From: Gammaproteobacteria bacterium
GTDB lineage: Bacteria > Pseudomonadota > Gammaproteobacteria > SZUA-140
NCBI GenBank assembly: GCA_016218365.1
Contig: JACREF010000010.1
Span: 1 to 64,000 of the forward strand
Reading direction: 5' to 3'
DNA: 64,000 bases
Under the pieces are notes generated by a model. That model ran no database searches and was not told where the DNA came from. It was given only the letters and a program-made list of their open reading frames with translations. This document shows positions 23,531 through 51,730 of this stretch, one piece after another; positions within the stretch are counted from its first letter, which is position 1; every line of letters starts with the position of its first letter. Made by a program: the position numbers and the translations under genes.

Positions 23531-24508
23531 TTAAGGTGGGCAAACGGTGAGCGTACGGTGCCCGGTAGCGCACGCCACTTTGTTCTGCTGGTAATCAAAG
23601 AAGCCGGCCCAGTTCAGGCTCAACACATCAAACCCGCCCGCCGCATAGCTGTAGACACCTTCCGTGAATCGCGAGTTATCGACGTCCCAACCATTCGCGC
23701 TATTCCAGCCCGTACCCGGCGCAAAACTATAACGGCCTGCCGTCACGACCGACTGCTGCGCAAAGGCCATATCAAAGTTACCGGCACCGGCAGAGGTGGT
23801 CGGCAGGCTCGAATCAAGGATCGTTGTTGCATTACGGACATCGCCGGCCCGGCTTGAATCGGTATAATTCAGCCGCCGCAGATCGGCCTTGTATTCCAGC
23901 GACAGCGCCCCATCCTTGACGGTCTGGCTGATGACCGGCTTCTTGGTCAGCAACGGTTTCAACACATCCAGTGTCATCCCGGAATCCGACACATAGGTGC
24001 GCATCGTCATCTTGGTCGGGTCACCGGTCCCGACACCAGACAGGTCATAGGGCCTGAACCCTGCCGTGGTCACCGACAAGCCATACGGATCCTTGGCATT
24101 ACCGAACACCCCGCCCGCATAGCCGGCCGCAGCGACCGGATAGGCCGCCTTGCTGCCCATCAAGGCCCGCTCATTACCGCCGGAGTCCGGACTAGACTGC
24201 AGCGATTGGCCGACCTGCGTAAGGCGTGTGTAGTATTCCGTTGCAAAGCCGGTGTAGGCCTCAGAGACAATGGTATGCATATAAACGACATTATCGATCT
24301 GTACTTTTTCTATCGTCAGCCGCGTCCCATCATTTCCTGATGCAACACCGCCGGTCAGGTTCCCGGAGCCGGCCATCGCGACGCCGTCAGGATTGGGGGC
24401 CAAGGTATAAGTAAACTGTGGGGCGGCCTGGGCGTGGGCGCCAAATAACAGGACCGACAGGCCTAACAGCCAGGCTATCGATGTTGAGTACATAGATTTA
24501 CTCTGCAT
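23531..24508 (-). CDS. Exported protein of unknown function
   Basis: The first 28 residues are a clear signal peptide (IAWLLGLSVLLFGAHAQA, cleaved before APQF), preceded by AAAGG. The remaining about 297 residues are rich in Gly, Ser, Thr and Tyr, with alternating hydrophobic patterns expected of beta structure, and end with a Cys pair (ACATGHRTLTVCPP) that could form a disulfide. No transmembrane helix, lipobox or catalytic motif was recognised. It is the first gene of a unit with the large CARDB protein (23 bases between them), so it may be secreted with or bind to that protein. No family assigned; certain that it is coding and exported. Confidence 0.72.
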   Translation of the reverse strand: MQSKSMYSTSIAWLLGLSVLLFGAHAQAAPQFTYTLAPNPDGVAMAGSGNLTGGVASGNDGTRLTIEKVQIDNVVYMHTIVSEAYTGFATEYYTRLTQVGQSLQSSPDSGGNERALMGSKAAYPVAAAGYAGGVFGNAKDPYGLSVTTAGFRPYDLSGVGTGDPTKMTMRTYVSDSGMTLDVLKPLLTKKPVISQTVKDGALSLEYKADLRRLNYTDSSRAGDVRNATTILDSSLPTTSAGAGNFDMAFAQQSVVTAGRYSFAPGTGWNSANGWDVDNSRFTEGVYSYAAGGFDVLSLNWAGFFDYQQNKVACATGHRTLTVCPP

Positions 24509-28628: not shown

Positions 28629-29633
28629 CTAATAATAAAATGTAATCTTGGCCGACAACCGCCAGCCGTCGAAGTTCAGCGGCATCGGGCGATAATAGTT
28701 CCGGCGCGTGGTCGGCTTGAACAACTGACTTACTGTTACCCCGGGCGCAAGGTAACCCAGGCTGCCAGCTGCCATCTCGCCATACGGCATGCCCAGACGG
28801 GTGAGGCCATCGTTGTCAAGAAAGTCATCCTGGATCTTGACGTTGTTCAGCTGGAAGGTGTCCTGCCCCAGCATATAGCCGGCGGCAATCCCCACCGATA
28901 ACGATTTATTCGCCTCCCACTCGCCACCGACACCCAGCTGCAGCGCCTGCAATGCCGCGGTCTGAGCCTTGACGAGCATCACACGGCGAATGCCGATCAG
29001 ATCAACGATCGGGCTATCCAGAAACAGAAACTCCTGCTCGTCCTGATAGTCGATATCAAATATCTCATGCAGCGACAACAGGCTGTACAGCCTGAACCGA
29101 TCAATCTTGCGGAAGTTATAGCGCCAGCCCAACGCATACTCGGTATAGGAAAGCTTGGCGCGACGGGTGCTGGCCACCAGATTGGAAACGTAATATTTCT
29201 GCATTGGCAGATTCCCGACGTTTCTCACCTGGGAGGTGGACTCCCATGATCCGATGCCAATGACCATACTGTGCACGGCGTTGGGCTGCCATTCGAACTC
29301 CACCCCCGTCACCGGGGTAAAGCCCACGCGGGGCACGCTGCTTTCAAATTTCCATTCGACAGTTTCAGTGATATTCGCATCCTGCCCCTGTCCCTGCCCT
29401 CCTTCATACACCAGGACATTGGCTTGCCCAAACAGATCCGCCTGATACACATGGTCGTTCAGTAACGTGAGCTGCGGGGCATGAGTGCCCAGATAGGGCG
29501 TAAACCCCCAGCGCGGGTAATCACCGGCCGCCTGCGCCATCCCTGGCCACAGCAGGACCGCATACACTATGTTGAGGAACCCTCGACTACGAAATGGCTT
29601 CACCACCACGCACTCGTCGCCATCAACGGTCAA
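28629..29633 (-). CDS. Outer-membrane beta-barrel-like protein of unknown function
   Basis: About 334 residues from a TTG that overlaps the RND gene stop; GTG codons near residue 9 would give a better signal peptide (VVVKPFRSRGFLNIVYAVLLWPGMAQA) and may be the true start. The mature part has alternating polar/hydrophobic strands with many Tyr, Trp and Phe, and ends AKITFYY, a typical outer-membrane barrel C-terminus. No family was recognised. It is the last gene of the LolA-like, DUF1302, RND group and shares 4 bases with the RND gene, so it is presumably the outer-membrane partner in the same transport task. Its stop codon touches the inserted miniature element. Confidence 0.78.
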   Translation of the reverse strand: MTVDGDECVVVKPFRSRGFLNIVYAVLLWPGMAQAAGDYPRWGFTPYLGTHAPQLTLLNDHVYQADLFGQANVLVYEGGQGQGQDANITETVEWKFESSVPRVGFTPVTGVEFEWQPNAVHSMVIGIGSWESTSQVRNVGNLPMQKYYVSNLVASTRRAKLSYTEYALGWRYNFRKIDRFRLYSLLSLHEIFDIDYQDEQEFLFLDSPIVDLIGIRRVMLVKAQTAALQALQLGVGGEWEANKSLSVGIAAGYMLGQDTFQLNNVKIQDDFLDNDGLTRLGMPYGEMAAGSLGYLAPGVTVSQLFKPTTRRNYYRPMPLNFDGWRLSAKITFYY

Positions 29634-32131
29634 TCATGCTGCGACGCAGCGGAACGGGCGAAACGCGGCTGCAACCAGGCAAACAGCAGCGGCAGCAACA
29701 GCAAGGCCGCGACGCAGGCACCCACCATATAGGCCGACACGAATACCCCGAGCTTGACATGCGGCGGGAACCGCGACATCAGCAACACCATAAAGCCGAC
29801 CGTGACGACGGCCGCGTTCAGCACGATCGCCTTGCCCACCGAACGCACCGCACCCAGCGACGCCTCGACCTCGGTGCTGCCGGAGCGCACCTCATAGGCA
29901 TATCTGAAGATATAATGCACGGCATAATCGACACCGACACCAATGGCGACACCGGCCGCCAGCACCGTCGACACATCCAGCGGCACCCGCAACCAGCCGG
30001 CAATCCCTGCCACCAGCAGCGTCGTCAAGGTCACCGGTAACACGGTATACAACCCTGCCAGCAAGGAGGTGAACAGCAGGGCGGCGATGATGAAGATACC
30101 CACCTTCGACAACAGGATCGACTTGACCTGGCTGGAGATCAGCAGATCGGCCCAGATATAGGAATTGTTGGCAGAGCTGGCCAGATTGACGTCGACATCC
30201 ATGCCGGCAAACTCGCGCGCGGCATAGTCCTTGACATGTTCGATGATCACCTTCAGGTTCTGGGTGTGATCGGTCTTGATCATGACCACGACATTGGCCT
30301 GTCGATATTCGTAGTCAACCACCGCATCCAGCTGTTCGGGCCGCCCCGACATCGACAGCAGAAACAGCTGCTCGCCGATCTCGGCCTGGGTATCCGGCAG
30401 ACGGTCAAACTTCGGGTCACCGAGATGAAAGGTCTTGTTGGTGCTCTTCAGATAATCGACCAGCGACAGGCTGCTGCCGACATACGGCAGCTGCTCGACA
30501 TCCTGCTGCAAGGCCTCGATCTTGTGCAGCAACGCCGGTGACTTCAGCGCATCCGGCTGCTTGCCGGCGACAATGACGCTGAGAAAGACCGTGCCATCAA
30601 ACTTGTCGTTCAACATCTGTGTCGACCGCACCACCTCGCTGCCGGGCTGGAAATCGGCGATCCAGCTTGAGTCAACGTACAGCGAACGGGCGCCATAGCC
30701 GGCGATGACGGCGACGGCCAGGATGCCAGCGGTGGCCAGCTTGCGGTGCTCGATCATCAAGCGGGCCAGTGCCACCAGGCCCCGGGTCATCAACCCGCTC
30801 TCCTCATGGACCCGCAACGAGCGGCGGCGTTGCAGATAACCGCTGACGTGCGGCCGCATCAGCGTCAATGCCGCCGGGATCAAGGTCACCGATACCAGCC
30901 AGCAGAAGCCGATACCCAGCGCGGTATAGACACCGAAGATACGGAACGGCGGCATGTCGGCCCACAACAGCGACAGGAAACCGATCATGGTGGTCACCGA
31001 GGTGATCAGCATCGGCAGGCCGAGCTGCTGCATCAGCGCGGTCACGATCGGCGCCGGCTCGCGGTGCGGGTCCTCCATGACCACATCCTCGTAATGACTG
31101 AGCAGGTGGATGCCGTTACCGATCCCGACTGCGACCAGGATCACCGGCAGCATGGTCGAGATGGTATACATCGGCGCCCCCAGCGCCGCCATCAGCCCCA
31201 TGGTCCAGACGATCGCGATCGCCACCGTCAACAGCGGCAACACCGTACCACGGAGGGTCCGGAAGATGATGAACAGCGTCGCAGCGATCGCCAGCACCAG
31301 GATCGGGATCATGATCATCATGTCATCGATCGCCTGCAGGCCGGAGGTGACCTCGATGACCGGGCGGCCGGCGATATAGAAGCGGTCACCGTTCGCGGTG
31401 GTGCTGTCGCTGATCACCGTCGGCCAGGTACCGCCGCCCCAGCCGCCACTCTTGTTGTCACCGCCACCACCGGCCTTGTTGTCCCAGTTGGCATTCCCCC
31501 AGTTGCCGCCGGTCTGGTCGCCCGGCTGCCAGTCACCCTGCGACACCCCGCCCAGCTCGGAGGCCAGGATACCCTTGATCATGAAATAGGCCTGGTAACG
31601 ATACTCCTTGCCCTCCTTGAGCCGGGCACGGATCATCGCCGCCGTGCCGTCCTTGGATACCAGGTTGCCAACAAACAGATCGGCATGTTCATAGACCCGC
31701 GCCTTCAGCGCCGCGATCGCCGCATCATCGCTGGGCAGTTCCTTCATCAGCGGGTCGTTATACAGCTCGTCACGGGTGCCGACGAAAACGCCGGCATTGG
31801 ACAGCGAGGCCACGTCCTGGCGGCGCTCAACCAGCACACCCGGCACCTGCTCGACCTTGTCGGTGACGCGCTTGATGCGCGCCAGCGTTTCGGCATTAAA
31901 GACGCCGTGATCGTTCTCAATAGCGATGATGATCGAATCCTTGACGCCAAAGGTGTCCGCGACCTTCTCGTCGAAGACGATCGCCGGATGGCCCTTGGGA
32001 AAATAGACGCGGGCATCGGTCTCCCAGCGCAACTTGCCGAACTGGGTGAGTCCCAGCACGGTGAATACCGCAATCACCGCCAGCGTGGCGCGCGGAAACC
32101 GGATGACCTGACTGTACCAACTGTTCAACAT
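29630..32131 (-). CDS. RND-superfamily lipid/hydrophobe permease (MMPL-type)
   Basis: An inner-membrane proton-driven transporter of 833 residues with the twelve-helix layout of the HAE3/MMPL group: one helix, a large periplasmic loop, five helices, a second helix and loop, five helices. Typical are FRTLRGTVLPLLTVAIAIVWTMG, GNGIHLLSHYED, and GVGVDYAVHYIFRYA. The start ATG 32131 follows AGGGAGCAGAC. A Gly/Asn/Trp-rich insertion of about 40 residues (196-237) lies in the first periplasmic loop. Neighbours are a DUF1302 protein, a LolA-like protein and a barrel, an assembly found in clusters thought to move lipids or other hydrophobic molecules across the envelope. The cargo is unknown. Confidence 0.9.
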   Translation of the reverse strand: MLNSWYSQVIRFPRATLAVIAVFTVLGLTQFGKLRWETDARVYFPKGHPAIVFDEKVADTFGVKDSIIIAIENDHGVFNAETLARIKRVTDKVEQVPGVLVERRQDVASLSNAGVFVGTRDELYNDPLMKELPSDDAAIAALKARVYEHADLFVGNLVSKDGTAAMIRARLKEGKEYRYQAYFMIKGILASELGGVSQGDWQPGDQTGGNWGNANWDNKAGGGGDNKSGGWGGGTWPTVISDSTTANGDRFYIAGRPVIEVTSGLQAIDDMMIMIPILVLAIAATLFIIFRTLRGTVLPLLTVAIAIVWTMGLMAALGAPMYTISTMLPVILVAVGIGNGIHLLSHYEDVVMEDPHREPAPIVTALMQQLGLPMLITSVTTMIGFLSLLWADMPPFRIFGVYTALGIGFCWLVSVTLIPAALTLMRPHVSGYLQRRRSLRVHEESGLMTRGLVALARLMIEHRKLATAGILAVAVIAGYGARSLYVDSSWIADFQPGSEVVRSTQMLNDKFDGTVFLSVIVAGKQPDALKSPALLHKIEALQQDVEQLPYVGSSLSLVDYLKSTNKTFHLGDPKFDRLPDTQAEIGEQLFLLSMSGRPEQLDAVVDYEYRQANVVVMIKTDHTQNLKVIIEHVKDYAAREFAGMDVDVNLASSANNSYIWADLLISSQVKSILLSKVGIFIIAALLFTSLLAGLYTVLPVTLTTLLVAGIAGWLRVPLDVSTVLAAGVAIGVGVDYAVHYIFRYAYEVRSGSTEVEASLGAVRSVGKAIVLNAAVVTVGFMVLLMSRFPPHVKLGVFVSAYMVGACVAALLLLPLLFAWLQPRFARSAASQHD

Positions 32132-32198: not shown

Positions 32199-33653
32199 TC
32201 AGAAATTATATTTAACTTCCATCACCAGCCGGTCATTCAGGTCAAAATTGCCGAAAAACCGGAAACGTTGCTCGATCGCGGCGATCTCGGTCGCCCGTCC
32301 ATTGATCGAGGCCACCCCGACCTGCGACCCCTGGCCTGAATACAGGTCCAGCCCGCCGGTAATCTGCAGTTGATCGGTCATTGTAAACGTCAGCCGTGGC
32401 TTTAGATAAGTCTCATTCATGTTGACCGAATAAATCCCCAGCATCTGGAACACCGCCCGGCGCTGCGGCAGTTCCTTGCGGATGAAAAGATTGATCGAGG
32501 TATCGGTCTGCGGCTGGATCAGGCCCGGATCATAACGCGGGATGATCCATTGCACCCCCCCCAGCGACACCTCGGTCCGCAGCAGGTTGAAGTCCAGCCC
32601 GATACCCACCCGGACATGGTCGGCCTGGGCCTCGCCATAACTGTCCACATAGCCGTCGCGGTTGCGATCCACGGTGCTCTTGTAGGCAAAGTATTTGTCC
32701 TTGACGTAGGCCAGCTCCCCCTTGATCACCTGTCCGAACAGCGGCCGCTGCACCGTCATCCCGGTCATCTTGATCCGGCTGAAGGTCGGATAAAAGGCCG
32801 GCTGCTCGACCTGCTCGTCGGCACGCACCTTGCGGAAGATCACCGGGAAATCGTCCCAGGTATCAAAATAGCTCCACGACAGCTCGGTGCCGAGCAGCGT
32901 CGTCGATAACTTGTAGCCATACTCGGCGACCTTGCCGGCCATGGTATCCGGAAAGATGGTACCGGGTACCGTCTGCAGCAGCTCCCATTCCGACCCCGGC
33001 GGCGCGGGCTTGTGAAAACGGATGTCCGGGATCCACACCAGCTCCAGCGTCGAACTGTCGGTCAGATACAGGTGGCTGCGGGCACTCCACAGCGGGATAC
33101 GGTAATCCATCAGATCGAGGTTGACCATCTCCCGGAAGTCCATCGGGTTCAGCTCATCGACCACCCGCACCCCGGTCATCACCCCCCAGACAATAAACTG
33201 CCGGCCGAGCCGCAGATCCGCACGCTCCAGCTGCAGGTCCAGATACAGCTCCCGCAGCTCGGCGACATCATTGTCCTGCTGCTCCTGCAGGCCGGCGATA
33301 TAGTTCAGCGGCTGGATGCTCTCGCGCTCGGCGCGGGCAGCGATGGTATCGTAGTTATACAGGTCATAGACCGTATCATGATAGGCCCAGCCCGCGGCGC
33401 GGAGATCCAGCATTGAAGCGAGCGGGATCTGGCTGTCGAGATAGAGGATATTGCGGATCTTGGTGAAGCTGCGCGGCTCACGGTAGCGATAGGCCGTCTC
33501 ATTCTTGTAATAACCGCTCAGCGTGCTGCCGGCGCCCATCGTCTGCCACCAGCTGCCGTCGCCGGCCAGGGCCGCACTCTGGTTCAGGGTCAGGGTCAGG
33601 ATCAGGGCCGCCGCCGCGACCCATGCCGGCCCCTGCTTCAGTCTGCGCAACAT
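32199..33653 (-). CDS. DUF1302 family outer-membrane protein
   Basis: 484 residues with a signal peptide (hydrophobic stretch AAAALILTLTL, cleaved near ALA-GDG) and a porin-like body. Features of DUF1302 proteins are visible: LRLGRQFIVWGVMTGVRVVDELNPMDFREM, then LWSARSHLYLTDSSTLELVWIPD, and a C-terminus VMEVKYNF ending in Phe as outer-membrane barrels do. DUF1302 genes commonly pair with MMPL permeases and LolA-like or DUF1329 proteins. It lies 67 bases before the RND gene and 204 bases after the LolA-like gene. The 204-base gap contains no further gene that I can support. Confidence 0.88.
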   Translation of the reverse strand: MLRRLKQGPAWVAAAALILTLTLNQSAALAGDGSWWQTMGAGSTLSGYYKNETAYRYREPRSFTKIRNILYLDSQIPLASMLDLRAAGWAYHDTVYDLYNYDTIAARAERESIQPLNYIAGLQEQQDNDVAELRELYLDLQLERADLRLGRQFIVWGVMTGVRVVDELNPMDFREMVNLDLMDYRIPLWSARSHLYLTDSSTLELVWIPDIRFHKPAPPGSEWELLQTVPGTIFPDTMAGKVAEYGYKLSTTLLGTELSWSYFDTWDDFPVIFRKVRADEQVEQPAFYPTFSRIKMTGMTVQRPLFGQVIKGELAYVKDKYFAYKSTVDRNRDGYVDSYGEAQADHVRVGIGLDFNLLRTEVSLGGVQWIIPRYDPGLIQPQTDTSINLFIRKELPQRRAVFQMLGIYSVNMNETYLKPRLTFTMTDQLQITGGLDLYSGQGSQVGVASINGRATEIAAIEQRFRFFGNFDLNDRLVMEVKYNF

Positions 33654-33857: not shown

Positions 33858-34679
33858 TCAGCGTATCCCGCGCTGCAGCGTACGCTCGCTGAACAGCGCG
33901 TCACTGAGTCCGACATCGATCTCGGGGCTGGTCACTCGGAATACCGAACTGTGTCCGGTCTTGGCATTGTTGACCACGACCTCGTCCCACAACCAGGCCT
34001 TGCCGACCTGCTGCCACTTCAGGACCTGGGTCTTCAGCAGGCTGCCATTGGGTTCATAGAACTCCACCCGTGCCTTGCGGCAGTCGGCCCACTGGCTTAC
34101 CTTGGCATACCACGCGACGACCTTGCCATACAAGGGCCGGGTCTCCTTCGGCAGGCTCTCGACGACATAATACTCGGCGCCATTGCGCTGTTCAGTGCGC
34201 AGCAGGGTATGGGTGTCCTGGGTCAGCAGCCGCGGACTGATATCCTGATAGGTCAGCTCGGAACCGAGGAAACTGTCGCCCGGGTCGCGCACCGACACCC
34301 GGCGGATGCTCTTCAGCGACGGCAGGTACAGCCACTGCTCGGCATTGTTATCCGCGCCGGCGACATAGCCCCAGCGCATAAAGCCCGTGCCACTGGCATC
34401 AGGCGGGAATTCGGTGAACAGTATCATCTTGTCATCGATACCGCCCTTGCCATCAAGATCCTTCCAGTAGCGCTTGTAGACATTCTTCTTTTCATTACCG
34501 CTGGCATCCCGCAGCAGCACCGTCAGCACCGAGCGGTTATCGTGCCCGGCAAAGGTGTCCAGGTCACAACGCTGCACCAGATCGGCGCCGGTCAGCTCCT
34601 CGGCCGCCAGTGTCATACTGGCCAGCACACCCACCACACTGGCAACGGCACGCACGCCGCCCATTACCCCATTGCTCAT
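33858..34679 (-). CDS. Outer-membrane lipoprotein-sorting protein (LolA-like)
   Basis: Starts at ATG 34679 with AGGAGG 7 bases upstream; 273 residues with a signal peptide ending near MTLAAEE. The body shows the LolA/LppX-like pattern of this family: VYKRYWKDL, MILFTEFPPDASGTGFMRW, WLYLPSLKSIRRVS, FLGSELTYQDIS, and YYVVESLPKE. It should fold as a half-barrel that can hold a hydrophobic molecule in the periplasm. Together with the RND and DUF1302 proteins it is likely a shuttle between membranes. Not the housekeeping LolA, which lacks this extended family motif and context. Confidence 0.88.
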   Translation of the reverse strand: MSNGVMGGVRAVASVVGVLASMTLAAEELTGADLVQRCDLDTFAGHDNRSVLTVLLRDASGNEKKNVYKRYWKDLDGKGGIDDKMILFTEFPPDASGTGFMRWGYVAGADNNAEQWLYLPSLKSIRRVSVRDPGDSFLGSELTYQDISPRLLTQDTHTLLRTEQRNGAEYYVVESLPKETRPLYGKVVAWYAKVSQWADCRKARVEFYEPNGSLLKTQVLKWQQVGKAWLWDEVVVNNAKTGHSSVFRVTSPEIDVGLSDALFSERTLQRGIR

Positions 34680-34751
34680 GCTCCATCCTCCTATGCTGTA
34701 TCCAGACCTATGATACCCGGCGCCGCGCACTAAACCGAGCCCCCGTACCGA

Positions 34752-34785
34752 CAAAAGAAAAGGGGGGGTCGCCCCCCCCCTTTCC
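34752..34785 (-). terminator. Strong terminator after the highly expressed exported-protein gene
   Basis: On the minus strand a G9/C7 stem with a short CGA loop is followed by TTTTCTTTTG. It lies 54 bases past the stop of the gene at 34839-35873 and upstream of the LolA-like gene, so it separates the two units. Confidence 0.85.
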
Positions 34786-34838: not shown

Positions 34839-35873
34839 TTACGGCATTGCAGTGAACGGATCGATCGCAGAAGCCGTATACGTAGTGGTATACGCTGGGA
34901 AGCCGTTCATGCTGTCAACCCCGAAAGACTCAGCTGGGGTTGTCTCGTTGGCGAAGTCATGCAGCGAGAAGGTGCCTGCGCCAGCGATGTCCTGGGCAAT
35001 CTTCAGGCTAACGATGGTGTCGCCAGCGTTGAAGTTACCTGACGTCGCACCATAGGTCGCGGCACCGCCAGAGATCACGGCGCCACCGGTACGCTCTCTC
35101 AGGGCGAAGGTCTGGGTGGTGCCCGCGCCATCGTTCAGAGATGAATCAGCATCCAGCTTCTTGCTGTTAGAAACGGTCATACCGATCGTCTGCGCGCCAA
35201 CTGCTTCATACGTCGTGGTAGCCAGCTTCAATGAACCCTTGAAGGTTGCATCCGCTACATCGCTGCCGATGGTCAGGTCAACCTTGGTAGCCGTCTGGGC
35301 GTTACCCAGATCACCAAAGCTGTTCTCAACCATATCGAAGGTTGAACCGAAGTTACGAGCGCCGCCCAGGTTGCCTGCCGTCGTGCCATCGATGATGTCG
35401 TTGGTCAGGTGGATCCTGTCGCCAGTGCCTTCAAAGGTGTCGGTCTTCAACGTTGCCTTTGAAACCATACGCTCACCCGCAGTACCGTTTTCACCCAGCA
35501 CCTGGTAGGCAGCCAGACCACCGCTGATTACCGCGTTACCAGAACCATCGGTAGCGTTGATGGCAACGAAGGTTTCAGATGAGAAACCGTCTACACCGCC
35601 GGCAATGGCAGCAGCACCACCAGAACCACCTGCACCGGCAGCAATACCGGCTGCATCGGCGATGATCGTCTGGATGTAGCTCTGACCGTTAGAGTCGGTC
35701 ACGGTGCGCTGCAGGAAACCGGCTTCAGACATCGCGGCTGAACCAGCACCTGAGGTGGTGATGACGCCGTTAGCGGCCATAGACCAACCATCGAAACCAG
35801 GCTGTGCGGCCAGGGCCAGAGCTGGCAGTGCGGCAGACGCCAGACCAACTTTAATCGCTTTACGTAATTGCAT
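34839..35873 (-). CDS. Exported Gly/Ala/Thr-rich protein of unknown function, probably abundant
   Basis: 344 residues with a signal peptide (KAIKVGLASAALPALALAAQ). The mature protein is almost free of Cys and rich in Gly, Ala, Thr and Ser, with repeating beta-like motifs (VISGGLAAYQV, AVISGGAATYG). No known domain was recognised. Expression signals are unusually good: a sigma-70 promoter with extended -10 at 36002-36030, AAGGGGG before the ATG, and a strong terminator. Glycine codons near the start are nearly all GGT, with CGT for early Arg and CTG for Leu, the bias of highly expressed genes, unlike its neighbours. It may be a major surface or periplasmic protein, perhaps a cargo of the adjacent transport set. 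Function is unknown. Confidence 0.78.
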   Translation of the reverse strand: MQLRKAIKVGLASAALPALALAAQPGFDGWSMAANGVITTSGAGSAAMSEAGFLQRTVTDSNGQSYIQTIIADAAGIAAGAGGSGGAAAIAGGVDGFSSETFVAINATDGSGNAVISGGLAAYQVLGENGTAGERMVSKATLKTDTFEGTGDRIHLTNDIIDGTTAGNLGGARNFGSTFDMVENSFGDLGNAQTATKVDLTIGSDVADATFKGSLKLATTTYEAVGAQTIGMTVSNSKKLDADSSLNDGAGTTQTFALRERTGGAVISGGAATYGATSGNFNAGDTIVSLKIAQDIAGAGTFSLHDFANETTPAESFGVDSMNGFPAYTTTYTASAIDPFTAMP

Positions 35874-36244: not shown

Positions 36245-38044
36245 TCAGCCCGCATGATGATCGACGTGCGGGCCGACAGCGGCCCCGCTCAGCCAGCCCT
36301 GCCACATATCACGGTAGGCCTGCTCCAGCGCCCGGGCCAGGCCGCGGCCATCACACAGCGGTGATGACTGAACGAGCGGGCGCAGGCCGGCACGCAGCCG
36401 TTGCAGCCGCTCCGGATCACCGGCCAGCGCGACCGCCTTGGTGATATAGTCCTCGGGGGTGCTGGCGATCAGCTCATGATGGCCGATGGCCTCAAGCATT
36501 GTCGAGGACAGCCGTTCGATGAAGCGACCGCCCTGCAGGGTCACCAGCGGTACCCCCATCCACAATCCCTCCATCGTCGTGGAGCCCCCGGTACGTGGCA
36601 TCGAATCCAGCGCGATATCCACCTCACCATAGCTGGCAAGATGCTCGGCCTGGGTCGCCGACCAGCCACGCAATATCAAGCGCTGAGCGTCGATGCCGTG
36701 GCCGGCAAACTGGGTCTGCAGACGCTGGCACACCCCCTGGTCATCGAGCTGGCGCGCCTTCATCATCAACCGCGATTGTGGCAGCTGGAGCAGGATGCTG
36801 CTCCAGCGCTCCACGGTCAGCGGCGTGATCTTGGTCAGGTCGTTGAAGCTGCCGAAGGTCACCGCCTCGCCCGCCGGACGGACGGACACCGGCGGCGCAA
36901 CGGCCGGCGGTTCGATCGCCAGACAGCAACGCGGCAAGCGCCAGACCTGCTCGACACTCTGCTCGATGCTGCCGGCAGGATGCAGCACGTCATCACTGAT
37001 CCAGTAATCGATGGCGGCCAGGCCGGTGGTGGAGAAATACCCCAGATAGGTGGCCTGGACCGGTGCCGGCTTGTAGGTGAACGCGCCGAGACGGTTCCCC
37101 TTGGTGTGGCCGGCCAGATCGATCAGGATGTCGATGCCATCATCGTGGATGCGGCGCGCCAGGGTCCGGTCATCAAGGTTCTGGGTAAAGCGCCAGCCAT
37201 CCACCAGCAGATGCAAGCGATGCGACACCGGGTCGCTGGCCTCAAGCTCGGCATAACACCAGATCTCGTACTGACTGCGGTCATGCTCCCGCAACAACGG
37301 TTCAACGAAATACCCTACGGCATGGCGGCGAAAATCCGGTGATACGTAACCGATCTTCAGCTTCCTGCCTGGCGGTTGCTGCCGGCTGTGGACATAGGCG
37401 TGGGCCCGGCCCGCCGCCCCGAATACCCGATCCCATTCACGATGGTCGGCCAGCAGCTGGGCCGGCGTCCCCAGCACATTGTAGGAACGCAGAAACAACA
37501 GATTATCAAATGCACCGGTGAAACCGGGATTGAGGGCGATGGCGCGGCGAAACTCCCGCTCCGCGGCCTGATATTCGCCGTTGATCATATGCATCATGCC
37601 GAGGTTGTTGCGCACATCCGCCGACGAAGGCTTGAGCTTCACACACTTGTTCAGATATTCGGCGGCCGGTCCGGGCTGCCCCCGATCCACCAGGATGGCC
37701 CCCAGGGCCAGCAGCACATCGTAATCACGCGGCTTGCGCTGCAAGGCCGCACGCAGCACCTCTACGGCCTCCTGCCAGTTGCTGATCGCACACAGGGCCG
37801 TGGCCAGATGTACCTTATAGGAATTGTTGGTCGGATTGAGTGCGATCGCCCTGCGGGTCAGCTCAATGCCCTGCTCCAGCGCATCGCAACGTATCGCCAC
37901 CTGGCCCAGCAGATGCAAGGCATCCGGCTGGTTGGGATCCGCGCGCAGGATCTCGCGGTACAGCCGCTCGGCCTCGATCAGCCGTCCTGCATTATGATGC
38001 TCCAGCGCTTGCTGCATCACAGCGACAACCTGCCTCCTGTCCAT
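36245..38044 (-). CDS. TPR-containing O-GlcNAc-transferase-like enzyme (GT41)
   Basis: Starts at ATG 38044 with GGAGGGGGG just upstream; 599 residues. The N-terminal 200 contain about five TPRs (EAERLYREILRADPNQPDALHLLGQ, in part; AAEYLNKCVKLKPSSADVRNNLG, in part). The C-terminal domain is of the SPINDLY/OGT type: KIGYVSPDFRRHAVGYF, IDILIDLAGHTKGNRLG, RPAPVQ-like KPAPVQATYLGYFSTTG, GSFNDLTKITPLTVERW, DSMPRTGGSTTMEGLWMG. Bacterial members glycosylate proteins or contribute to surface polysaccharide. It starts 20 bases after the giant TPR protein gene on the same strand, so the two are cotranscribed. Whether the giant protein is its substrate is open. Confidence 0.9.
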   Translation of the reverse strand: MDRRQVVAVMQQALEHHNAGRLIEAERLYREILRADPNQPDALHLLGQVAIRCDALEQGIELTRRAIALNPTNNSYKVHLATALCAISNWQEAVEVLRAALQRKPRDYDVLLALGAILVDRGQPGPAAEYLNKCVKLKPSSADVRNNLGMMHMINGEYQAAEREFRRAIALNPGFTGAFDNLLFLRSYNVLGTPAQLLADHREWDRVFGAAGRAHAYVHSRQQPPGRKLKIGYVSPDFRRHAVGYFVEPLLREHDRSQYEIWCYAELEASDPVSHRLHLLVDGWRFTQNLDDRTLARRIHDDGIDILIDLAGHTKGNRLGAFTYKPAPVQATYLGYFSTTGLAAIDYWISDDVLHPAGSIEQSVEQVWRLPRCCLAIEPPAVAPPVSVRPAGEAVTFGSFNDLTKITPLTVERWSSILLQLPQSRLMMKARQLDDQGVCQRLQTQFAGHGIDAQRLILRGWSATQAEHLASYGEVDIALDSMPRTGGSTTMEGLWMGVPLVTLQGGRFIERLSSTMLEAIGHHELIASTPEDYITKAVALAGDPERLQRLRAGLRPLVQSSPLCDGRGLARALEQAYRDMWQGWLSGAAVGPHVDHHAG

Positions 38045-38063: not shown

Positions 38064-41000
38064 CTAGAAATTGAAATTGGCTGACATCGACAGTGAGCGC
38101 GAATCATAACTGCCCAGCGTACCGGACTGCCGCCCCACCGGGCGGCCATCGCCACGGTAGATATACCCCAGCGGCAGATTGGTCCTGGCGATCGCCCAGT
38201 TCATCGCCAACGACAGCGACAAACTGTTATGCGGGCGATAACTCAGGCCAGCCCGCAGTGAATTATCGGCATTTTGCCGGTGCCGGGTAATCCCCAGGCC
38301 GTAGAAGGCGTTACTGTCGGGATAGGTAAACTGCTTGATGCCAAAGCTCACGCCCAGATTGCCGCTGATACCCGGGAAGATGTCTGAAAACAGCGGGCGC
38401 GACACACTGACCAGGCCCTGATGTTGCACCGCGGCATAATCCTTGCCGTAGTCATGCTGGTTCATGGTATTGCTATAGTTATATCCGAACATCCAGTTGC
38501 TACCCCAGATCGACGGCATGCTGTAACTCACTCCCATCGTATAGCTGCTGGTATCGAAGAAATTGTTTTTCAGCGAGATGAAATCGTTGTAACCAATCCG
38601 GATCCCCGCGCGATGGTCAGGCAATTCCTGGGCATTGATCAGCGTAATCCTGGCATCACGCTTGAGCCCCAGCGCGACGCGCAGACGCTGGGCCTCATCA
38701 ACCATCCGGGTATCCCCCAGCGCCAGCGCCCGATCGATCTCCACCTCGGCCTGGTCATAGCGGCCGGTCTCGATGTACAGCTCCGCCAGCTGCATGCGGG
38801 TCGTCAGGTTAAACGGATCCTCGCCGAGGATGCGCGTCATGATCTCCTCGGCCGCCAGGTAATCCTTCCGATAGCGGCGGATCAGCGCCTGGTTCAGCAG
38901 TACCAGATGATCGCCGGGGAGCTCTGCCAGCACCCCGTCCAGGGTGGCCAGCGCCGCGACATGATCACCGGCACGCAACTGTTCCAACCCCTGGTCAAAA
39001 CCCAGCACCGTTAACAACTCACGGTAGACGTCTGCATTGCCGCCTGTTGCCAGCACCTCCTTGTACAGGCTGATGGCCTGTGGCCGCTTGCCCAAGCGTA
39101 GCGTGACCCGCGCCAGCCGCAGCCTGGCATCACGGTAGCCGGGCTGCAGCTGCAGCACCCTGACATAGGCCTGCTCTGCATCGGCATCGATACCGGCCTG
39201 CTCATATAATGCGGCTGCCCGGTACCCTATTTCCACGTCTTGCGGAAAACCCGCCGCCAACCGGCCAAGGGCCTGGGCGGATTCAACCACCTGCCCGAGT
39301 GCGGCACGCTCTTCTTCATTGATGATGGCGACACGCCGGCGGGCAAGTTCACGCTGCGCGTCGCTACCGTCACGGACCACCTGCTGATAATGCTGAACCG
39401 CTTCAGGCCGCCGCCCGGATTTATCATACTGCCCGGCCAGGCCCAGATGGCAGCCGGGGTACTGTGCCGCGCCCTGCACACACGCCTCGAAGACCTGTGT
39501 CGCCTCGGCATCGGCACCCGCCCTGACCAGCAGCTCGGCCAGCCGGAATCTGGGCTCGGCCTGCTGCGGGTAGGCAGCAATCGCCTTTGCCAACAACTCA
39601 CGGACACCCGTTTCATCGCCCCGCGCCGCCACGTGATCAAGACGCTGGAAAAATATCATCAATCGGGCATCATCAGACAGTTTCTGCGGCTGGCTCAACG
39701 CCTGCTGGGCAAGGCTTCGGTACAGGCCCGGGAGCAACTTGTTCATGGCATCGGCATAACCCGTTTCCGGTGCCATGCCCTGTACTTGCTCGGCCTGGGA
39801 GATGGCCTCCTGGTAGGAGGCCATCTCCCGGTACAGCATCACCAGGCGATAACGGGGCTCAGGATTGCCGGGATCGGCCTCCGCTGCCCGCTGATAAGAT
39901 GCCGCTGCTGCTTCATACTCGCGCAATTTCTGATAGGACTCGCCCAGATAGATATTGGTCAATATGTCATCGTGCACATACTCATAGATCCTGCTCAGCG
40001 ACACCAGCGCCTCATCCGGCTTGCCATGCTGCAGCTGTTCGACCCCCGCACGGTAGTACTTCATCCCTTGCGTGCTGCCCGGCACCGGCGCGAGCAACGG
40101 CTGCCCCTGCCGCTGCAATACCAGCTTTGGTTTACCATTGATATAGATCAGGTGAACGGTATCACCCGGAAAGATCTTGTCCGGATTCTTGATCTCAGGA
40201 TTGACGGCCCACAACTCCGGCCACAGCCAGGGATCATTCAACAATGCCTCGGAGATATCCCACAGCGTATCCCCTTCCCGCACCTGGTACTGATTGGTGG
40301 TCTCGGCCGGGGCAGCGGCAAGACTGGCCAGTTTTTGCTGCAGGGCCTCGTTTTCCAGGATATACCTCGGCGGCAACGGCCGCTCGACCACCACCGGCTC
40401 GGCGGCCGGTTCCTGGCCCCGCACCATGATTGAGATACCGATATATTCATCTGGCGTCTCGGTGGCCGTGGCGGGGCGGAAGGCCGCTATCCGTGAAAAA
40501 GGGTTTTTAAAGGTCCAGTTACCGCCCAGCCCGGCACTGTGGCCGCTGCCACTCTCCTCCTCCAGCAACAACCCCTGGACATCCTGGGCCATTGCCGAGA
40601 AATCAAAGCTTCTCCTGCCCAGATTGAGGTCACCGGTCACACCATAACTCGGAGAGATCTGGTCGGTACCGGAGGCATGATTGGAGGTATAGGATCCGCC
40701 TCCGGTCACGGCCAGCGATGATTTCTTGCTGGGGCGAAACGCCCAGCGACCATTCAGATTCAGCGTCGAACCGTAGCCGCTGCTTTTCGGACCGCCGGCC
40801 TTGGCCTCGCTGAGGGTGGCCGAATAGGCAAGGGACGAACTGAAAGGGTTGAGCCTGTTCTGCACCGACTCCAGCTGCAACCGGGCGTTCTCCACCACCC
40901 TATTCGCCTGACCCGAGGCGATGATGGCACGATATTGATCGGAGGCCAGCTCATAGTCACTGCGTTGTGTATACAGCCCCCCGAGGCGCAGTCTGGCGAG

Positions 41001-44000
41001 GACATGATTGGGGTCCAGCCTGACCGCTTCCTGCAACTGAACCAGTGCCTCCTCCTCATTTTTGGCCCTGATCAGCAGCATGGCCATCATGTAATGCGCC
41101 TGGGCGTTGTCAGGGAGGTAAGCACTGATCGCCTGCAGCTCCTGCATCGCCCGCTCCGTCTCCAGCTCGCCATTCAGCTTGTCAACGAGGGTAAAGCGCA
41201 GATCCAGCGCCATGGCCTTCGCCTTGTCTTCGTCGCGCTGCAGGGCGATGCTGCGGGAAAAGTTTTCGATGGCCTCCCGGTATCTTCCCTGGGAGCGATA
41301 TAACAGGGCCAGATTGGTCAGGGCCGACAGGTTATCGGGCGAATATTTTTCCACCAGGGAGAATTCGCGGATGGCATCTTCCGCCATGCCCATTGCCCGG
41401 TACGTCACGGCCAGATTGCTGCGCGCCTCGACATCATAGGGATTCTTGCTCAGCACCTGCAGGTAATCCTGCAACGCCTCCTGTCCACGCCCAGCACGCC
41501 GCAACCGGTCGGCACGCTGCTGATAAAGGGCTGTCAAGGCATCATCGGCCCGGTTCAGATCCTCATCGCTCTGCGACTCCCTGACAACCTGCTCCAGCAA
41601 TTCTATGGCGCTGGTCTCGCGCTCGGTGCGCGCCATCAACAGCCCAAGCTGCAAGCGTGCATACTGATAAGTCGGCGCCACCTTCAGCGATTTATTATAC
41701 AGCTTTTCGGCCCCCCCCTCCTCGCCGACCCGGGCCAGGGCGTTTGCGGTCTGGCTGTACAAAACAGGATCCTCGCCCACCGTTGCCATGATCTCGTCGA
41801 ATATCTTCAACCCCTCATTGATCTTACGCTGGGCTATCAATCGCTCTACATCCCCCACCCCCAGCGGAGACAACGCCAAACGATGTTTTGGGCTGTCGGG
41901 CGCTGAATGCGTCAGGGCATTCTTCAGTTGTGCAGTGGCCTTGGCGAGGTCGTTCCTTTCGTTATAAACCCGGGCCCGTTCCAGGTATAAATCGACATCA
42001 TCCGGCGTCGCGGTCTGGGCCCGATCAAACATCCGATCCGCCTCCTCGTGACGACCTCCGAGCTCATAAGCCAGTGCCGTCTTCAGCAGCAATGAGCCGT
42101 CCTCCGGATGGGTCATCAACAACCTTTCATAGATCTCCAGCGCCCCTGCGACATCCTTATCAGCAAGCCGTTGACTGGCCCGGATCATCCCGGCAGCCAG
42201 GCTGGCCCGGTCCACGGCTTCGGCCGGTTCACCGCGACGAACAATACCGTCATAGATCCGGATGGCGTCGCCATCCTGCTTGAGTGCGAGAAAGATCTCG
42301 GCCATCTTGCTCAGCTTGGCAATATCATCCATACCGGCGCCGAGACTGCGCTGCAGGTAATCCACGGCCCGTTGCGGTTGACGCTGGCTGTCATGGACAC
42401 GCCCAACCCAATATAAGGCCTCGGGATGATCCGGCAATCGATCCAGCAGCCGCAGCGCCAGCTGGCTGGCGGCCGTGTCCTTGCCTGCATCAAGCAGCCC
42501 TGCGATGTGTTCACCAATCGCGGTGATGAGTGTGTCATCCAGCGCCTTGTTGCCGCCCAGCCTGGCCAGGTAATCCTGGCTCTGACGGGTCATCAGAGAA
42601 TCCAGGCTGAGCCGGGCGACCTTGGCTTGCGGTGAGGCAGGTGCAATGGCGATGACCTCACGATTCAACCGCATCCCATCCACTAGCCGCCCCTGCTCCA
42701 GGTAGACCCTGACCAGATTCAGACGAGCATCGAGCTGGCTGTGGTCATATTCCAGCGTCTTCAGATAGGCCTGCTCGGCTTCCCCATTCCTGCCTTGCGC
42801 ATGATAGACATCACCCAATCCCATATACGGGGCGGCGGCGTCGGGCGCAGCCTGTTGCGCCCTGGTAAAGGCCGTGATGGCCTTGTTATAGTCCTTGCCG
42901 GCCAAGGCTTCCCGACCCGCGACCAGCCCCAGGCCATCCATGGCCTTTTGCCTGCTGAGCTGATCCTGCGAGCGGTGGATCACCTCCTGGTACTGCGCAT
43001 AGGCCAACTCACTGCGACCGGTCCGTTGCAACACCCCGGCAAGGCTCAGCCTTGCCTCAATCATGTCTGGTTGCTGCTGCAACACCTGCTGATAGCGGAC
43101 GATGGCCTGGTCGTAGGCGCCCGTTTCTTCATAGGCCCCCGCCAGCGCCTGCAGCAACTTTACATTGCCGGGCGTCTTGGCAAGGCTCTTTTCGATCAAG
43201 GCCAGACCTTGACGACTGTTACCTGTTTTAACCAACGCTATCCCAGACCAGTACAACACGGTGGCATCATTGGGGACGCGCGCCAACATAGCGCTAAACA
43301 CCCTTGAGACCGGGCGATAGGCCTTGCGGGCCAACAGTTTCTTGCCCTCCTCGATATAACCCTTGCGTACCGCCTCATCTGCCAGATCGGCATGCTCGAC
43401 GGCGGCCACCAGCTGATCGGCCTTTTTCTCATACAACCCGACCAGCTGTCTCTCCCCCTCCCTGGCGATCTCGGCGCGACGCGGCTCCCTGATCTGAGCG
43501 GCCACAAGTTCCAGTGTGTCCTGCGCCTCATCGATCCGGCCAGTTTCCTCCAGCAGCTGCCCCAGCCTGAGGCGTGCAGCGAGAAAACCCGGATAGTCTT
43601 CAATCAGCTTTCTGAACTGGGCCTCGGCCTCGGTATAACGCTGTTGTCGCTGATACACCAGACCCACCTTCAGCAGGATCTCCGCCTCCCCCGGCGACAC
43701 TGCCAGGACCTTCTGGTAGCTGGCCAGCGCCTGGGAATATTTTTTCGATTTAAGGTAATCGTCGCCGTCCTTTCCCCCAAGCTGATCGATTATTCCCTGG
43801 CGCTGGCGCGGCGCCAGCGCCAGGGGCAACGCGTCAATGTAAACACGCTGGGCCTGATCGTTCTTGCCCTGCTTACTGTATATCCCGGCCAGCGACAACC
43901 GGGCATCGATATTTCCATTATCAAGATCAATAACGGCAAGAAAGGCCGCCGCGGCCTTGTCCAGCAACCCGGCCTGTTCATAGGTTTGTCCCAGCGCCCG

Positions 44001-45953
44001 CCTCAATGCCACGCTCTTTGGGGCCAGCGCCACGCCACGCTCTATGTCCTGCAGGGCCACATCGTATTTCTTGCGCTTGATGGCGACCTGGGACAGGTAA
44101 TAATGCGCCCGGGCGTCATCAGGTGAATACTGCAATATCAGGTTAAATTTTTCCTCGGCGCCAGCGAGATTCCCCTGTTCCAGCAGCGTATTGCCCTGCT
44201 TAAGCAGATCATTCTCGGCCCTGACCAACTGCGTCTTGGCCTCATTCACCCGCCGGCTGTCATCGCCCTGGACATTCTTCAGATATGGCAATGCCTCGCT
44301 GCTGCGCCCGAGCTCCACCAGCATCCGGCCATAATGAAGATTGGCATCGATATCCTCGGGCTTCAGCGCCAGGATCTCTTTCAGCACCAGCTCCGCCTGG
44401 GGGTAGTTCTTAGTGGCCAGCAGGGCCGTAGCAAAATACAATTTGATCCGGACGTTCCCGGGGATGAGGCCATCCAGCCGTTTTAGAGACTGCACGGCCT
44501 GCCCCGCCCTGCCTTCCCTGAGGTCCTTCAGCGCCTGATTAACCCCCAGCCGATCGAGCACCCGCTCAAAGGCAGGGCCTTCGTTCGGGGTCTGCGAGAT
44601 CAACAATTTCAATTGCTCTGCTGCATGCTCCTTGTCCCCGCGGCCTTCATAGATATTCGCCAATGCCAGATAGATATCGGGATCATCAGGCTTCAGCTCC
44701 CGGGCCCGCGCCAGCATGCGTTCGGCATCCTCTGGCCGCTTGCCGGCCTCATACATACCGCTGGCACGCTTCATAATATCGATATCGTCCGGAAATGCCG
44801 CCAGCAGGGCCTCATATTCGGCAATCGCCGCCGCCGTATCCTGCTGTTTGAAAAATCGCTGCGCCCGCACCACGCCCACGGCACGTCGCGCCTGATCAGC
44901 CAGGCGGGTGTCCTGGCTGGAGTCTATAACTCGATGATAGGTTGACTCGGCATCTTCCAGGCGTCCCGCCTCTTCATAGGCCTGTCCCAGCGACAACACC
45001 AGCCGCAGATTGTCGGCCGCCAGTGATGTGCTTTGTTCTATATGGGCTATGCCATGTTCATAGTCCTTCTGCATCATCAGCGCACGACCCAGCCAGTACT
45101 GTGGCTGCGGATCATCTGGTCGCAGCCCCGCCAGCGGGGTCAACAGCGCCAGCGCCGCCTTGCCGTCACCAGCCTGCACCAACTTCTTGCCACGCTCAAG
45201 GACCATCTTTACCAGATCCTCATCCTGCAGCCATACAGTGACGGACTTGGTTTTCTTCGTCATCTCTCCGGCAAGACTGTCATACAGTGCCCGCAAATTT
45301 TCCTGCGCCTCCTTGGCCTGGTCGGCCTTGAGCGTCTGCCTGGTCATCTTTTCATAAAGCATGATAGCGTCGGCAAGACGCTGGCCCTCCACAAAAAGGC
45401 GACCGAGGTTTAGCTGGGCCTCGATGTTACCGGGCTCCTGCTCCAGGACGGCTCGCAGTACTCGTTCGGCATCATCATGGCGCGTCGCGGCCACATAGGC
45501 CTGCGCCAGGGCAATCCGCAAGCGCGCATTCTGCGGTGCCAGCTCAACACTGCGCACCAGATACCGCAATCCCTCATCAAACTTCTTATCGCGCATGAAG
45601 ATCTGTCCAAGCCAGTAATTGGCCTGGGGCTCATCGGGCGCCTGGTCCAGGATTGCACGGAACACCGTGCGTGCTTCGTCAAACCTGGATTGCGTATACA
45701 ACTCCTTACCACGTCGCACCTGGTCTGCAACATCGACTGCCGGAGCAGATGGGCTGGCAGCCACCTGCCGGACATCGCCCGCCGCCCCCTGGCCTGAAGA
45801 TGACACCCCGGCATCGGCCTCTGCCGCGTGCACCTCATCCAGGGTACGAACCAGCCCTCCACCGCAGCACAGCAGGATTGCGCAGGTGGTGCCACGGACT
45901 AAGCGCCAAGCTGACCTGCCCCTGGAGTCGAGGAGAGAAAAAATAGCCGTCAT
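38064..45953 (-). CDS. Giant TPR protein with LysM domain and two barrel-like segments
   Basis: About 2,629 residues from ATG 45953; a GTG at 46022 also opens the frame, and neither has a good ribosome site. The N-terminus has a signal-like segment (TTCAILLCCGGGLV, then HAAEA). Residues about 75-1695 are an almost continuous TPR array (34-residue units such as AQANYWLGQIFMRDKKFDEG). Residues 1698-1845 look like short amphipathic beta strands (SSLAYSATLSEAK, GLGGNWTFKNPF). A LysM domain follows at 1888-1942 (YQVREGDTLWDISEAL, NPDKIFPGDTVHLI). A second TPR array covers 1965-2430, and 2435-2629 is a beta-rich region ending SMSANFNF, typical of outer-membrane barrels. The plan recalls polysaccharide exporters such as BcsC or PgaA (TPR then barrel) but is much larger and has a LysM insert. 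It lies ahead of the GT41 gene and divergent from a sugar transferase. Confidence 0.85.
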   Translation of the reverse strand: MTAIFSLLDSRGRSAWRLVRGTTCAILLCCGGGLVRTLDEVHAAEADAGVSSSGQGAAGDVRQVAASPSAPAVDVADQVRRGKELYTQSRFDEARTVFRAILDQAPDEPQANYWLGQIFMRDKKFDEGLRYLVRSVELAPQNARLRIALAQAYVAATRHDDAERVLRAVLEQEPGNIEAQLNLGRLFVEGQRLADAIMLYEKMTRQTLKADQAKEAQENLRALYDSLAGEMTKKTKSVTVWLQDEDLVKMVLERGKKLVQAGDGKAALALLTPLAGLRPDDPQPQYWLGRALMMQKDYEHGIAHIEQSTSLAADNLRLVLSLGQAYEEAGRLEDAESTYHRVIDSSQDTRLADQARRAVGVVRAQRFFKQQDTAAAIAEYEALLAAFPDDIDIMKRASGMYEAGKRPEDAERMLARARELKPDDPDIYLALANIYEGRGDKEHAAEQLKLLISQTPNEGPAFERVLDRLGVNQALKDLREGRAGQAVQSLKRLDGLIPGNVRIKLYFATALLATKNYPQAELVLKEILALKPEDIDANLHYGRMLVELGRSSEALPYLKNVQGDDSRRVNEAKTQLVRAENDLLKQGNTLLEQGNLAGAEEKFNLILQYSPDDARAHYYLSQVAIKRKKYDVALQDIERGVALAPKSVALRRALGQTYEQAGLLDKAAAAFLAVIDLDNGNIDARLSLAGIYSKQGKNDQAQRVYIDALPLALAPRQRQGIIDQLGGKDGDDYLKSKKYSQALASYQKVLAVSPGEAEILLKVGLVYQRQQRYTEAEAQFRKLIEDYPGFLAARLRLGQLLEETGRIDEAQDTLELVAAQIREPRRAEIAREGERQLVGLYEKKADQLVAAVEHADLADEAVRKGYIEEGKKLLARKAYRPVSRVFSAMLARVPNDATVLYWSGIALVKTGNSRQGLALIEKSLAKTPGNVKLLQALAGAYEETGAYDQAIVRYQQVLQQQPDMIEARLSLAGVLQRTGRSELAYAQYQEVIHRSQDQLSRQKAMDGLGLVAGREALAGKDYNKAITAFTRAQQAAPDAAAPYMGLGDVYHAQGRNGEAEQAYLKTLEYDHSQLDARLNLVRVYLEQGRLVDGMRLNREVIAIAPASPQAKVARLSLDSLMTRQSQDYLARLGGNKALDDTLITAIGEHIAGLLDAGKDTAASQLALRLLDRLPDHPEALYWVGRVHDSQRQPQRAVDYLQRSLGAGMDDIAKLSKMAEIFLALKQDGDAIRIYDGIVRRGEPAEAVDRASLAAGMIRASQRLADKDVAGALEIYERLLMTHPEDGSLLLKTALAYELGGRHEEADRMFDRAQTATPDDVDLYLERARVYNERNDLAKATAQLKNALTHSAPDSPKHRLALSPLGVGDVERLIAQRKINEGLKIFDEIMATVGEDPVLYSQTANALARVGEEGGAEKLYNKSLKVAPTYQYARLQLGLLMARTERETSAIELLEQVVRESQSDEDLNRADDALTALYQQRADRLRRAGRGQEALQDYLQVLSKNPYDVEARSNLAVTYRAMGMAEDAIREFSLVEKYSPDNLSALTNLALLYRSQGRYREAIENFSRSIALQRDEDKAKAMALDLRFTLVDKLNGELETERAMQELQAISAYLPDNAQAHYMMAMLLIRAKNEEEALVQLQEAVRLDPNHVLARLRLGGLYTQRSDYELASDQYRAIIASGQANRVVENARLQLESVQNRLNPFSSSLAYSATLSEAKAGGPKSSGYGSTLNLNGRWAFRPSKKSSLAVTGGGSYTSNHASGTDQISPSYGVTGDLNLGRRSFDFSAMAQDVQGLLLEEESGSGHSAGLGGNWTFKNPFSRIAAFRPATATETPDEYIGISIMVRGQEPAAEPVVVERPLPPRYILENEALQQKLASLAAAPAETTNQYQVREGDTLWDISEALLNDPWLWPELWAVNPEIKNPDKIFPGDTVHLIYINGKPKLVLQRQGQPLLAPVPGSTQGMKYYRAGVEQLQHGKPDEALVSLSRIYEYVHDDILTNIYLGESYQKLREYEAAAASYQRAAEADPGNPEPRYRLVMLYREMASYQEAISQAEQVQGMAPETGYADAMNKLLPGLYRSLAQQALSQPQKLSDDARLMIFFQRLDHVAARGDETGVRELLAKAIAAYPQQAEPRFRLAELLVRAGADAEATQVFEACVQGAAQYPGCHLGLAGQYDKSGRRPEAVQHYQQVVRDGSDAQRELARRRVAIINEEERAALGQVVESAQALGRLAAGFPQDVEIGYRAAALYEQAGIDADAEQAYVRVLQLQPGYRDARLRLARVTLRLGKRPQAISLYKEVLATGGNADVYRELLTVLGFDQGLEQLRAGDHVAALATLDGVLAELPGDHLVLLNQALIRRYRKDYLAAEEIMTRILGEDPFNLTTRMQLAELYIETGRYDQAEVEIDRALALGDTRMVDEAQRLRVALGLKRDARITLINAQELPDHRAGIRIGYNDFISLKNNFFDTSSYTMGVSYSMPSIWGSNWMFGYNYSNTMNQHDYGKDYAAVQHQGLVSVSRPLFSDIFPGISGNLGVSFGIKQFTYPDSNAFYGLGITRHRQNADNSLRAGLSYRPHNSLSLSLAMNWAIARTNLPLGYIYRGDGRPVGRQSGTLGSYDSRSLSMSANFNF

Positions 45954-51112: not shown

Positions 51113-51730
51113 ATGGATAAACGACCACAAATCACGATGAAGCCATCCCAAAGCCAACAACTCCGGTTTCAGCAGCTGTTGGCCCCTCATACTGGACCAC
51201 TGTTCCGTCTTGCCTGGCGTTTCTGTGGCTCCCGCCACGATGCCGAGGATCTGCTGCAGGACCTGCTGATCAAGCTCTATCCCCGCCTGCCCGAACTGGA
51301 ACAGGTCGAGCAGTTGCGGCCGTGGCTATCCCGGGTACTCTATCGTCTGTTTATCGACATGCATCGCAGCCAGTCCCGCTCCCCGCTGCATCTGGTTACC
51401 GACCATCATGGCGATGAAGAAGACGCCCCGGATCCGATCCTTGAACAGCCCGCCGACAGCGGGGATGAGCCGGAACACGCCCTGGGCCAGACCCAGCTGC
51501 AACGTGAAATCCAGGCCGGCCTCGACCGTCTGTCAGATAACCACCGCACGGTACTGATGCTGCATGATGTTGAGGGCTACGCCCTGAACGAGATGGAGAT
51601 CATCCTCGATTGCCCGATAGGCACCCTGAAGTCCAGGCTGCATCGTGCGCGGGCCCGGTTGCGGGAACTGCTGATAGAACAGGGAACCGTTTCTGAGCAA
51701 CAAGCGTGTCAAGGGACAGGAGGACAGTAA
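51113..51730 (+). CDS. ECF-type RNA polymerase sigma factor
   Basis: 205 residues with sigma-70 region 2 (AWRFCGSRHDAEDLLQDLLIKLYP, about 34-57) and region 4 (LDRLSDNHRTVLMLHDVEGYALNEMEIIL). An acidic linker joins them (HHGDEEDAPDP). Region 3 is absent, as in ECF factors. GAGGCG precedes the ATG. The next gene, 3 bases after its stop, encodes a zinc-finger anti-sigma factor, the standard pairing. Likely targets are the downstream exported protein and perhaps the TPR-barrel gene, but no ECF promoter was identified. Confidence 0.92.
   Translation: MDKRPQITMKPSQSQQLRFQQLLAPHTGPLFRLAWRFCGSRHDAEDLLQDLLIKLYPRLPELEQVEQLRPWLSRVLYRLFIDMHRSQSRSPLHLVTDHHGDEEDAPDPILEQPADSGDEPEHALGQTQLQREIQAGLDRLSDNHRTVLMLHDVEGYALNEMEIILDCPIGTLKSRLHRARARLRELLIEQGTVSEQQACQGTGGQ

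Follow-up and report, generated by a model that had tools for sequence, protein, structure and literature searches.

A giant TPR-barrel protein with a LysM-bearing insert in a predicted single outer-membrane barrel: a putative T11SS-like exporter in Gammaproteobacteria

The window analysed here, a stretch of 64,000 nucleotides from a gammaproteobacterial contig (JACREF010000010.1), encodes a giant TPR protein on its minus strand (38064..45953, with no stop or frame break in that interval). The reading frame comprises 2,629 residues from its ATG, or 2,652 residues (23 more) from an alternative GTG start at 46022. All parts of the gene are given in minus-strand coordinates. A putative signal peptide is read at residues 1-44 (45822..45953; core TTCAILLCCGGGLV, VHA-AEA site), followed by an N-terminal TPR array at residues 75-1684 (40902..45731). 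A first beta stretch (residues ~1700-1820; 40494..40856), assigned to putative barrel strands 1-6, is separated from a second (residues ~2448-2629; 38067..38612), assigned to putative strands 7-14 and ending in a C-terminal Phe, by about 627 residues (38613..40493). The intervening segment contains a LysM domain (residues 1887-1950; 40104..40295) and a second TPR block (residues 1963-2430; 38664..40067). Pfam TPR families cover the helical parts to their end, starting near residue 80. In a position-specific scan, 40 TPR-like units of 34 residues precede residue 1690 and another 10 lie at residues 1963-2416, whereas shuffled sequences yield a mean of 0.8 units. This layout bears out the sequence-only reading, which described a TPR protein of ~2,600 residues with LysM between two beta-rich stretches. 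The same reading called the array many times longer than in known exporters, which is overstated: BcsC has about 19 TPR repeats, and the count of ~40+10 is roughly two to three times that number.

Downstream of the giant, and on the same strand, lie six genes, the last five of which belong to a conserved cassette. The first encodes a glycosyltransferase with TPRs and a GT41 (SPINDLY/OGT-like) domain (36245..38044; PF13844, 185 bits); its ATG is located 20 bp past the stop of the giant and is preceded by a GGAGG ribosome site. It is followed by genes for a secreted, low-charge protein of 344 aa rich in Gly, Ala and Thr (34839..35873), a LolA-like periplasmic carrier (33858..34754; PF17131, 142 bits), a DUF1302 protein resembling the outer-membrane protein AmeA (32199..33653; PF06980, 58 bits), an inner-membrane RND transporter of the MMPL/HAE3 type (29630..32131; PF03176, and TIGR00921 at 220 bits, below cut-off) and an OMP-like protein of 334 aa (28629..29633), homologs of which stand beside nearly all TPR-barrel genes examined. 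A second secreted protein, of 325 aa (23531..24508, minus strand), is 35% identical to L117_11394 and has a homolog after the cassette in another genome (G012). Two further minus-strand genes (19833-23573 and 24646-27417) encode large secreted proteins with beta-propeller SBBP and CARDB or DUF11 repeats; their C-termini, with a Gly-rich stretch, a hydrophobic helix and a basic tail, resemble a GlyGly-CTERM sorting signal. Genes for an ECF sigma factor and then a zinc-finger anti-sigma factor (51113-52425, plus strand), which lie some 5 kb upstream of where the giant begins, might regulate it. A tRNA-Gly (gcc) is predicted at 11857-11936 (minus strand), antisense within the ORF 11179-12126.

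The giant contains a single LysM domain (residues 1889-1933 in Pfam, 30.8 bits against a cut-off of 20.9). Its best solved relatives are chain 6ve2_O (E = 6.7e-20), which we take to be P. aeruginosa TsaP, and the TsaP chain 3jc8_Ta, and it is 50% identical over 66 residues to a LysM protein of 376 aa encoded in the same genome. Among the giants the LysM domains are 55-61% identical and the barrels only about 30%, which argues that LysM is under strong constraint. By sequence the domain is of the TsaP type and is predicted to anchor the protein to peptidoglycan. TsaP of M. xanthus is peptidoglycan-binding and secretin-associated, according to work cited in PMC7545093. The giant would thus share with TsaP of the type IV pilus secretins both the LysM sequence type and the anchoring of an outer-membrane pore to peptidoglycan. 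However, TsaP is a separate protein of ~380 aa, whereas the LysM of the giant lies inside the barrel's own sequence. LysM-like matches are also seen in two very long frames of related genomes, one of 7,225 aa with two matches (G010:C93:31018-31350) and one of 4,985 aa with a single match (G002:C30).

A search of 94 related genomes for relatives of the giant recovered the middle stretch, complete with LysM, in G009, G010 and G012 (36-38% identity); in G001 and G006 the stretch was present but lacked LysM. In all the genomes with giants, the C-terminal part sits in the same frames as the middle stretch. The order TPR-beta-LysM-TPR-beta therefore recurs in three other genomes from two other genera. 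G009 has it in a single frame of 2,561 aa, and the frames of G010 and G012 are cut by contig ends; the giants lacking LysM measure 2,796 aa (G001) and 2,444 aa (G006, contig-cut). Of the family's 20 genomes, 6 contain a giant, and these represent 4 of its 7 genera. No further giant was found in a class-wide sample of 369 genomes beyond the family, in the order to which the related genome G313 belongs, or in a phylum-wide sample of 399 genomes. A scan of contigs returned mostly TsaP-like LysM genes, and the barrel is present in none of those loci. Within the literature library searched, no paper joined LysM, TPR and an outer-membrane barrel. The C-terminal query also retrieved short TPR-barrel paralogs of ~850-1,300 aa with an unbroken barrel-like end; one of them is an 898-aa frame of the window's own genome.

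The cassette is well supported by its conservation beside both giants and short forms, among them a second copy in the same genome. In G009, G010 and G012 the secreted protein, the LolA-like carrier and the DUF1302 protein are encoded after the giant, as are the MMPL transporter and the OMP where the contig reaches, and in other families the short TPR-barrel genes directly follow DUF1302, MMPL and OMP genes. A GT41 neighbour is proven only in the window and in G001: the giant-adjacent genes of G009 and G006 are contig-cut and show TPRs only, and a more distant TPR gene of G012 gives no GT41 match. After the giant of G001 come a TPR-sulfotransferase gene and then three consecutive TPR-GT41 genes (L113:9594-16708). 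Some short cassettes contain, between the LolA-like and DUF1302 genes, a small conserved gene resembling a ribbon-helix-helix regulator (L074:904-1365, L157:6958-7398, L154:14972-15472). Homologs of the 344-aa secreted protein occur in eight further cassettes, giant and short; these proteins contain little Lys, Arg and Glu but much Gly, Ala and Thr, and have the motif GF[LIA]Q...QTI in common. Since cargo of type 11 secretion systems (T11SS) has been predicted through such gene linkage (PMC12282271), this protein is likely the cargo of the giant. However, it matches no Pfam or NCBIfam family, and it carries no known T11SS cargo domain, whereas T11SS cargo has a C-terminal barrel domain; this counts against a T11SS-like route.

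The nearest characterized cassette is AmeABCD of Castellaniella defragrans, an HAE3 efflux system conferring monoterpene tolerance, in which AmeA, AmeB and AmeD correspond to the DUF1302, LolA-like and HAE3/MMPL proteins, respectively (PMC6394551). The giant and its neighbours may accordingly belong to an envelope-spanning system for lipids or other hydrophobic compounds, in which pump, LolA-like carrier and DUF1302 protein move the substrate and the TPR-barrel protein serves as a peptidoglycan-anchored outer-membrane exit or docking station. Conservation of the cassette agrees with such a role, as do the three of four Ame-type components present at the locus. Two points weaken the T11SS-like export pathway: no LolA/DUF1302/MMPL cassette was seen in 30 kb around the G001 giant, and T11SS exporters are not known to require an MMPL pump or a LolA-like carrier of their own. 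Several short cassettes of the giants' family lack the MMPL gene, which also counts against that pathway; that they keep a gene for a secreted protein while lacking the pump speaks against an Ame-like system. Moreover, the Ame cassette contains a YCF48-like AmeC and no TPR-barrel gene, whereas the giant's cassette has no YCF48-like gene; what it encodes besides the shared components is a further OMP, the secreted protein and the TPR-barrel. Transport of hydrophobic compounds is consequently regarded as an unlikely role, albeit one to be taken seriously.

A profile built from the aligned ends of 15 short TPR-barrel paralogs matches the giant twice, its positions 7-155 at residues 1670-1816 (E = 3.8e-12) and its positions 173-344 at residues 2450-2629 (E = 2e-33). 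The beta parts and the C-terminus are thus barrel-like, as first proposed, and a reading of the beta regions as soluble domains is disfavoured. The short barrels in turn are related to SlipAM: the one of L070 scores 30.4 bits (cut-off 22), other short members are likewise above the cut-off, and a profile-profile comparison with bona fide SlipAM proteins gives a probability of 98.7 (E = 3e-16, 303 columns), compared with 3.1 and 3.5 for two unrelated OMP families of the cassette. Homology over the whole barrel is therefore drawn through the short barrels, which the barrel profile ties to the giant. The giant's own barrel halves give no SlipAM match over the cut-off; hence the giant appears remotely homologous to SlipAM/DUF560 and is best called Slam/T11SS-like, not a member. 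SlipAM/DUF560 proteins serve as the exporters of type 11 secretion and combine TPRs with a barrel of 14 strands (PMC8406197). The giant resembles Slam/T11SS (SlipAM, DUF560, PF04575) in its N-terminal TPRs, in the remote homology of its barrel and in being encoded near a secreted protein, and its barrel may likewise have 14 strands. It differs from the SlipAM relatives in this analysis, which are ~450-550 aa long, have few TPRs and lack both LysM and a barrel insert.

The sequence-only reading had placed the giant with BcsC and PgaA, an assignment that did not hold, as only the TPR parts match those models and the barrel relative is SlipAM/DUF560. BcsC, PgaA and PelB have a TPR arm and a C-terminal barrel as the giant does, and an exporter of that kind would pass exopolysaccharide. 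An undecaprenyl-phosphate glucose phosphotransferase is indeed encoded divergently at 46580, and the PgaA and BcsC models do recognize the TPR parts. However, the giant's barrel matches neither BcsC nor PgaA, the genome lacks BCSC_C, the cassette contains no synthase gene, and the short paralogs stand in the same cassette without polysaccharide genes, so that polysaccharide export is improbable. The PrsT model (TIGR02917) scores 457.1 bits on the giant (cut-off 312.2), over the TPR parts only, and automatic annotation would therefore name it PrsT. PrsT is a PEP-CTERM TPR lipoprotein with a model of 899 TPR positions, whereas the giant, at 2,629 aa, has a barrel, LysM and no clear lipobox; the assignment was rejected. 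Nor does the giant stand beside the exosortase locus, as expected of PrsT: the genome's exosortase gene lies on another contig (G000:C32:42329-43075).

That the two beta regions are halves of one barrel, not two barrels, is well supported by sequence comparison. The short paralogs were retrieved with the C-terminal half only, yet their profile also matches the middle stretch, and conversely a profile of the giants' middle stretch alone matches the N-terminal half of short barrels in other families. The split point is identical in all six giants, with the halves in order. G313, from another family, encodes a protein of 1,769 aa with a long TPR arm and an unbroken barrel (profile positions 7-344, E = 2.4e-51); a second frame, 1,037 aa or more in length and with TPRs only, precedes this gene by ~16 bp (L146:16888-19998). 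The tree places G313 as sister to the giants, which are monophyletic (support 100/100 and 96/90). Since the barrel of G313 is whole and the giants form a single clade, one insertion in the family's lineage would be the simplest history. Because the halves are contiguous in the short paralogs and G313 and split at one point in the giants, a single interrupted Slam-like barrel is very probable. The proposal of an exporter fused to a peptidoglycan anchor and a second TPR-barrel unit thus stands for a TPR exporter type with an anchor and falls for the second unit. The ~630 residues between the halves might also be taken to indicate two membrane parts, with barrels of six and eight strands, or domain swapping in which two chains jointly complete a barrel. 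AlphaFold2, run on residues 1685-2629 as a single sequence with no alignment, yielded no usable structure (mean pLDDT 42, barrel parts mostly <35) and so leaves room for such arrangements. Set against the contiguous halves of the paralogs and the sister protein they are highly improbable, and we know of no stable six-strand outer-membrane barrel. Finally, two genes fused by an error of assembly or annotation, for which nothing speaks except the unusual length, are practically excluded because other genera, whose genomes were assembled independently, show the same order in a single frame.

The interrupted barrel also suggests a topology. The alignment of short paralogs can be read as 14 strands, of which six precede the insertion point and eight follow it; the short turns then lie on the same side of the barrel as the C-terminus. 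As the TPR arm before strand 1 is predicted to be periplasmic and LysM must sit in the same compartment, the 6/7 connection and its insert would be periplasmic. In a test of alternating hydrophobicity, 20.5% of the barrel-alignment columns exceed the 95% null and 12 of the 14 putative strands lie above the threshold, with strands 4 and 5 below it. A structural parallel for insertion at strands 6/7 is the plug domain of PapC (PMC4356140). The ushers PapC and FimD resemble the giant in carrying a soluble domain between strands 6 and 7, but have a 24-strand barrel and an Ig-like plug and lack LysM and TPR. Pfam indicates no sequence relation between the giant and these ushers.

Taken together, the giant is on balance probably a peptidoglycan-anchored, T11SS-like outer-membrane exporter that works with the pathway proposed for its cassette; that what it exports is protein falls a little short of probable. 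The long periplasmic TPR arm would enter the barrel and collect the secreted protein, which the adjacent GT41 enzyme may have glycosylated ahead of its Sec export. The insert of ~630 residues at strands 6/7 would consist of a linker, the LysM domain and the second TPR block leading into strand 7. LysM would hold pore and insert against peptidoglycan, the two TPR blocks may form a periplasmic chamber or bridge for incoming cargo, and the barrel would pass the cargo to the surface. The LolA-like carrier, the DUF1302 protein, the HAE3/MMPL pump and the further OMP would contribute to the same pathway.

The periplasmic turns of outer-membrane barrels are normally short. A peptidoglycan-binding insert of 630 residues would therefore offer a rare natural test of how BAM folds an interrupted barrel, and the giant would also test whether a tie to the wall benefits exporters. 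More tentatively, and with considerable doubt, the cassettes may represent a gammaproteobacterial export system, absent from the papers found, that comprises a secreted protein, a LolA-like carrier, a DUF1302 protein, an HAE3/MMPL pump, an OMP and a T11SS-like TPR-barrel; the proton-driven pump would provide what is missing from a simple T11SS, and one family would have its pore locked to peptidoglycan by the insert of LysM and TPRs. The giant would also extend the Slam/T11SS kind of exporter to very long TPR arms and link it to an HAE3/LolA/DUF1302 cassette, and the conserved candidate cargo makes the questions of cargo and energy directly testable.
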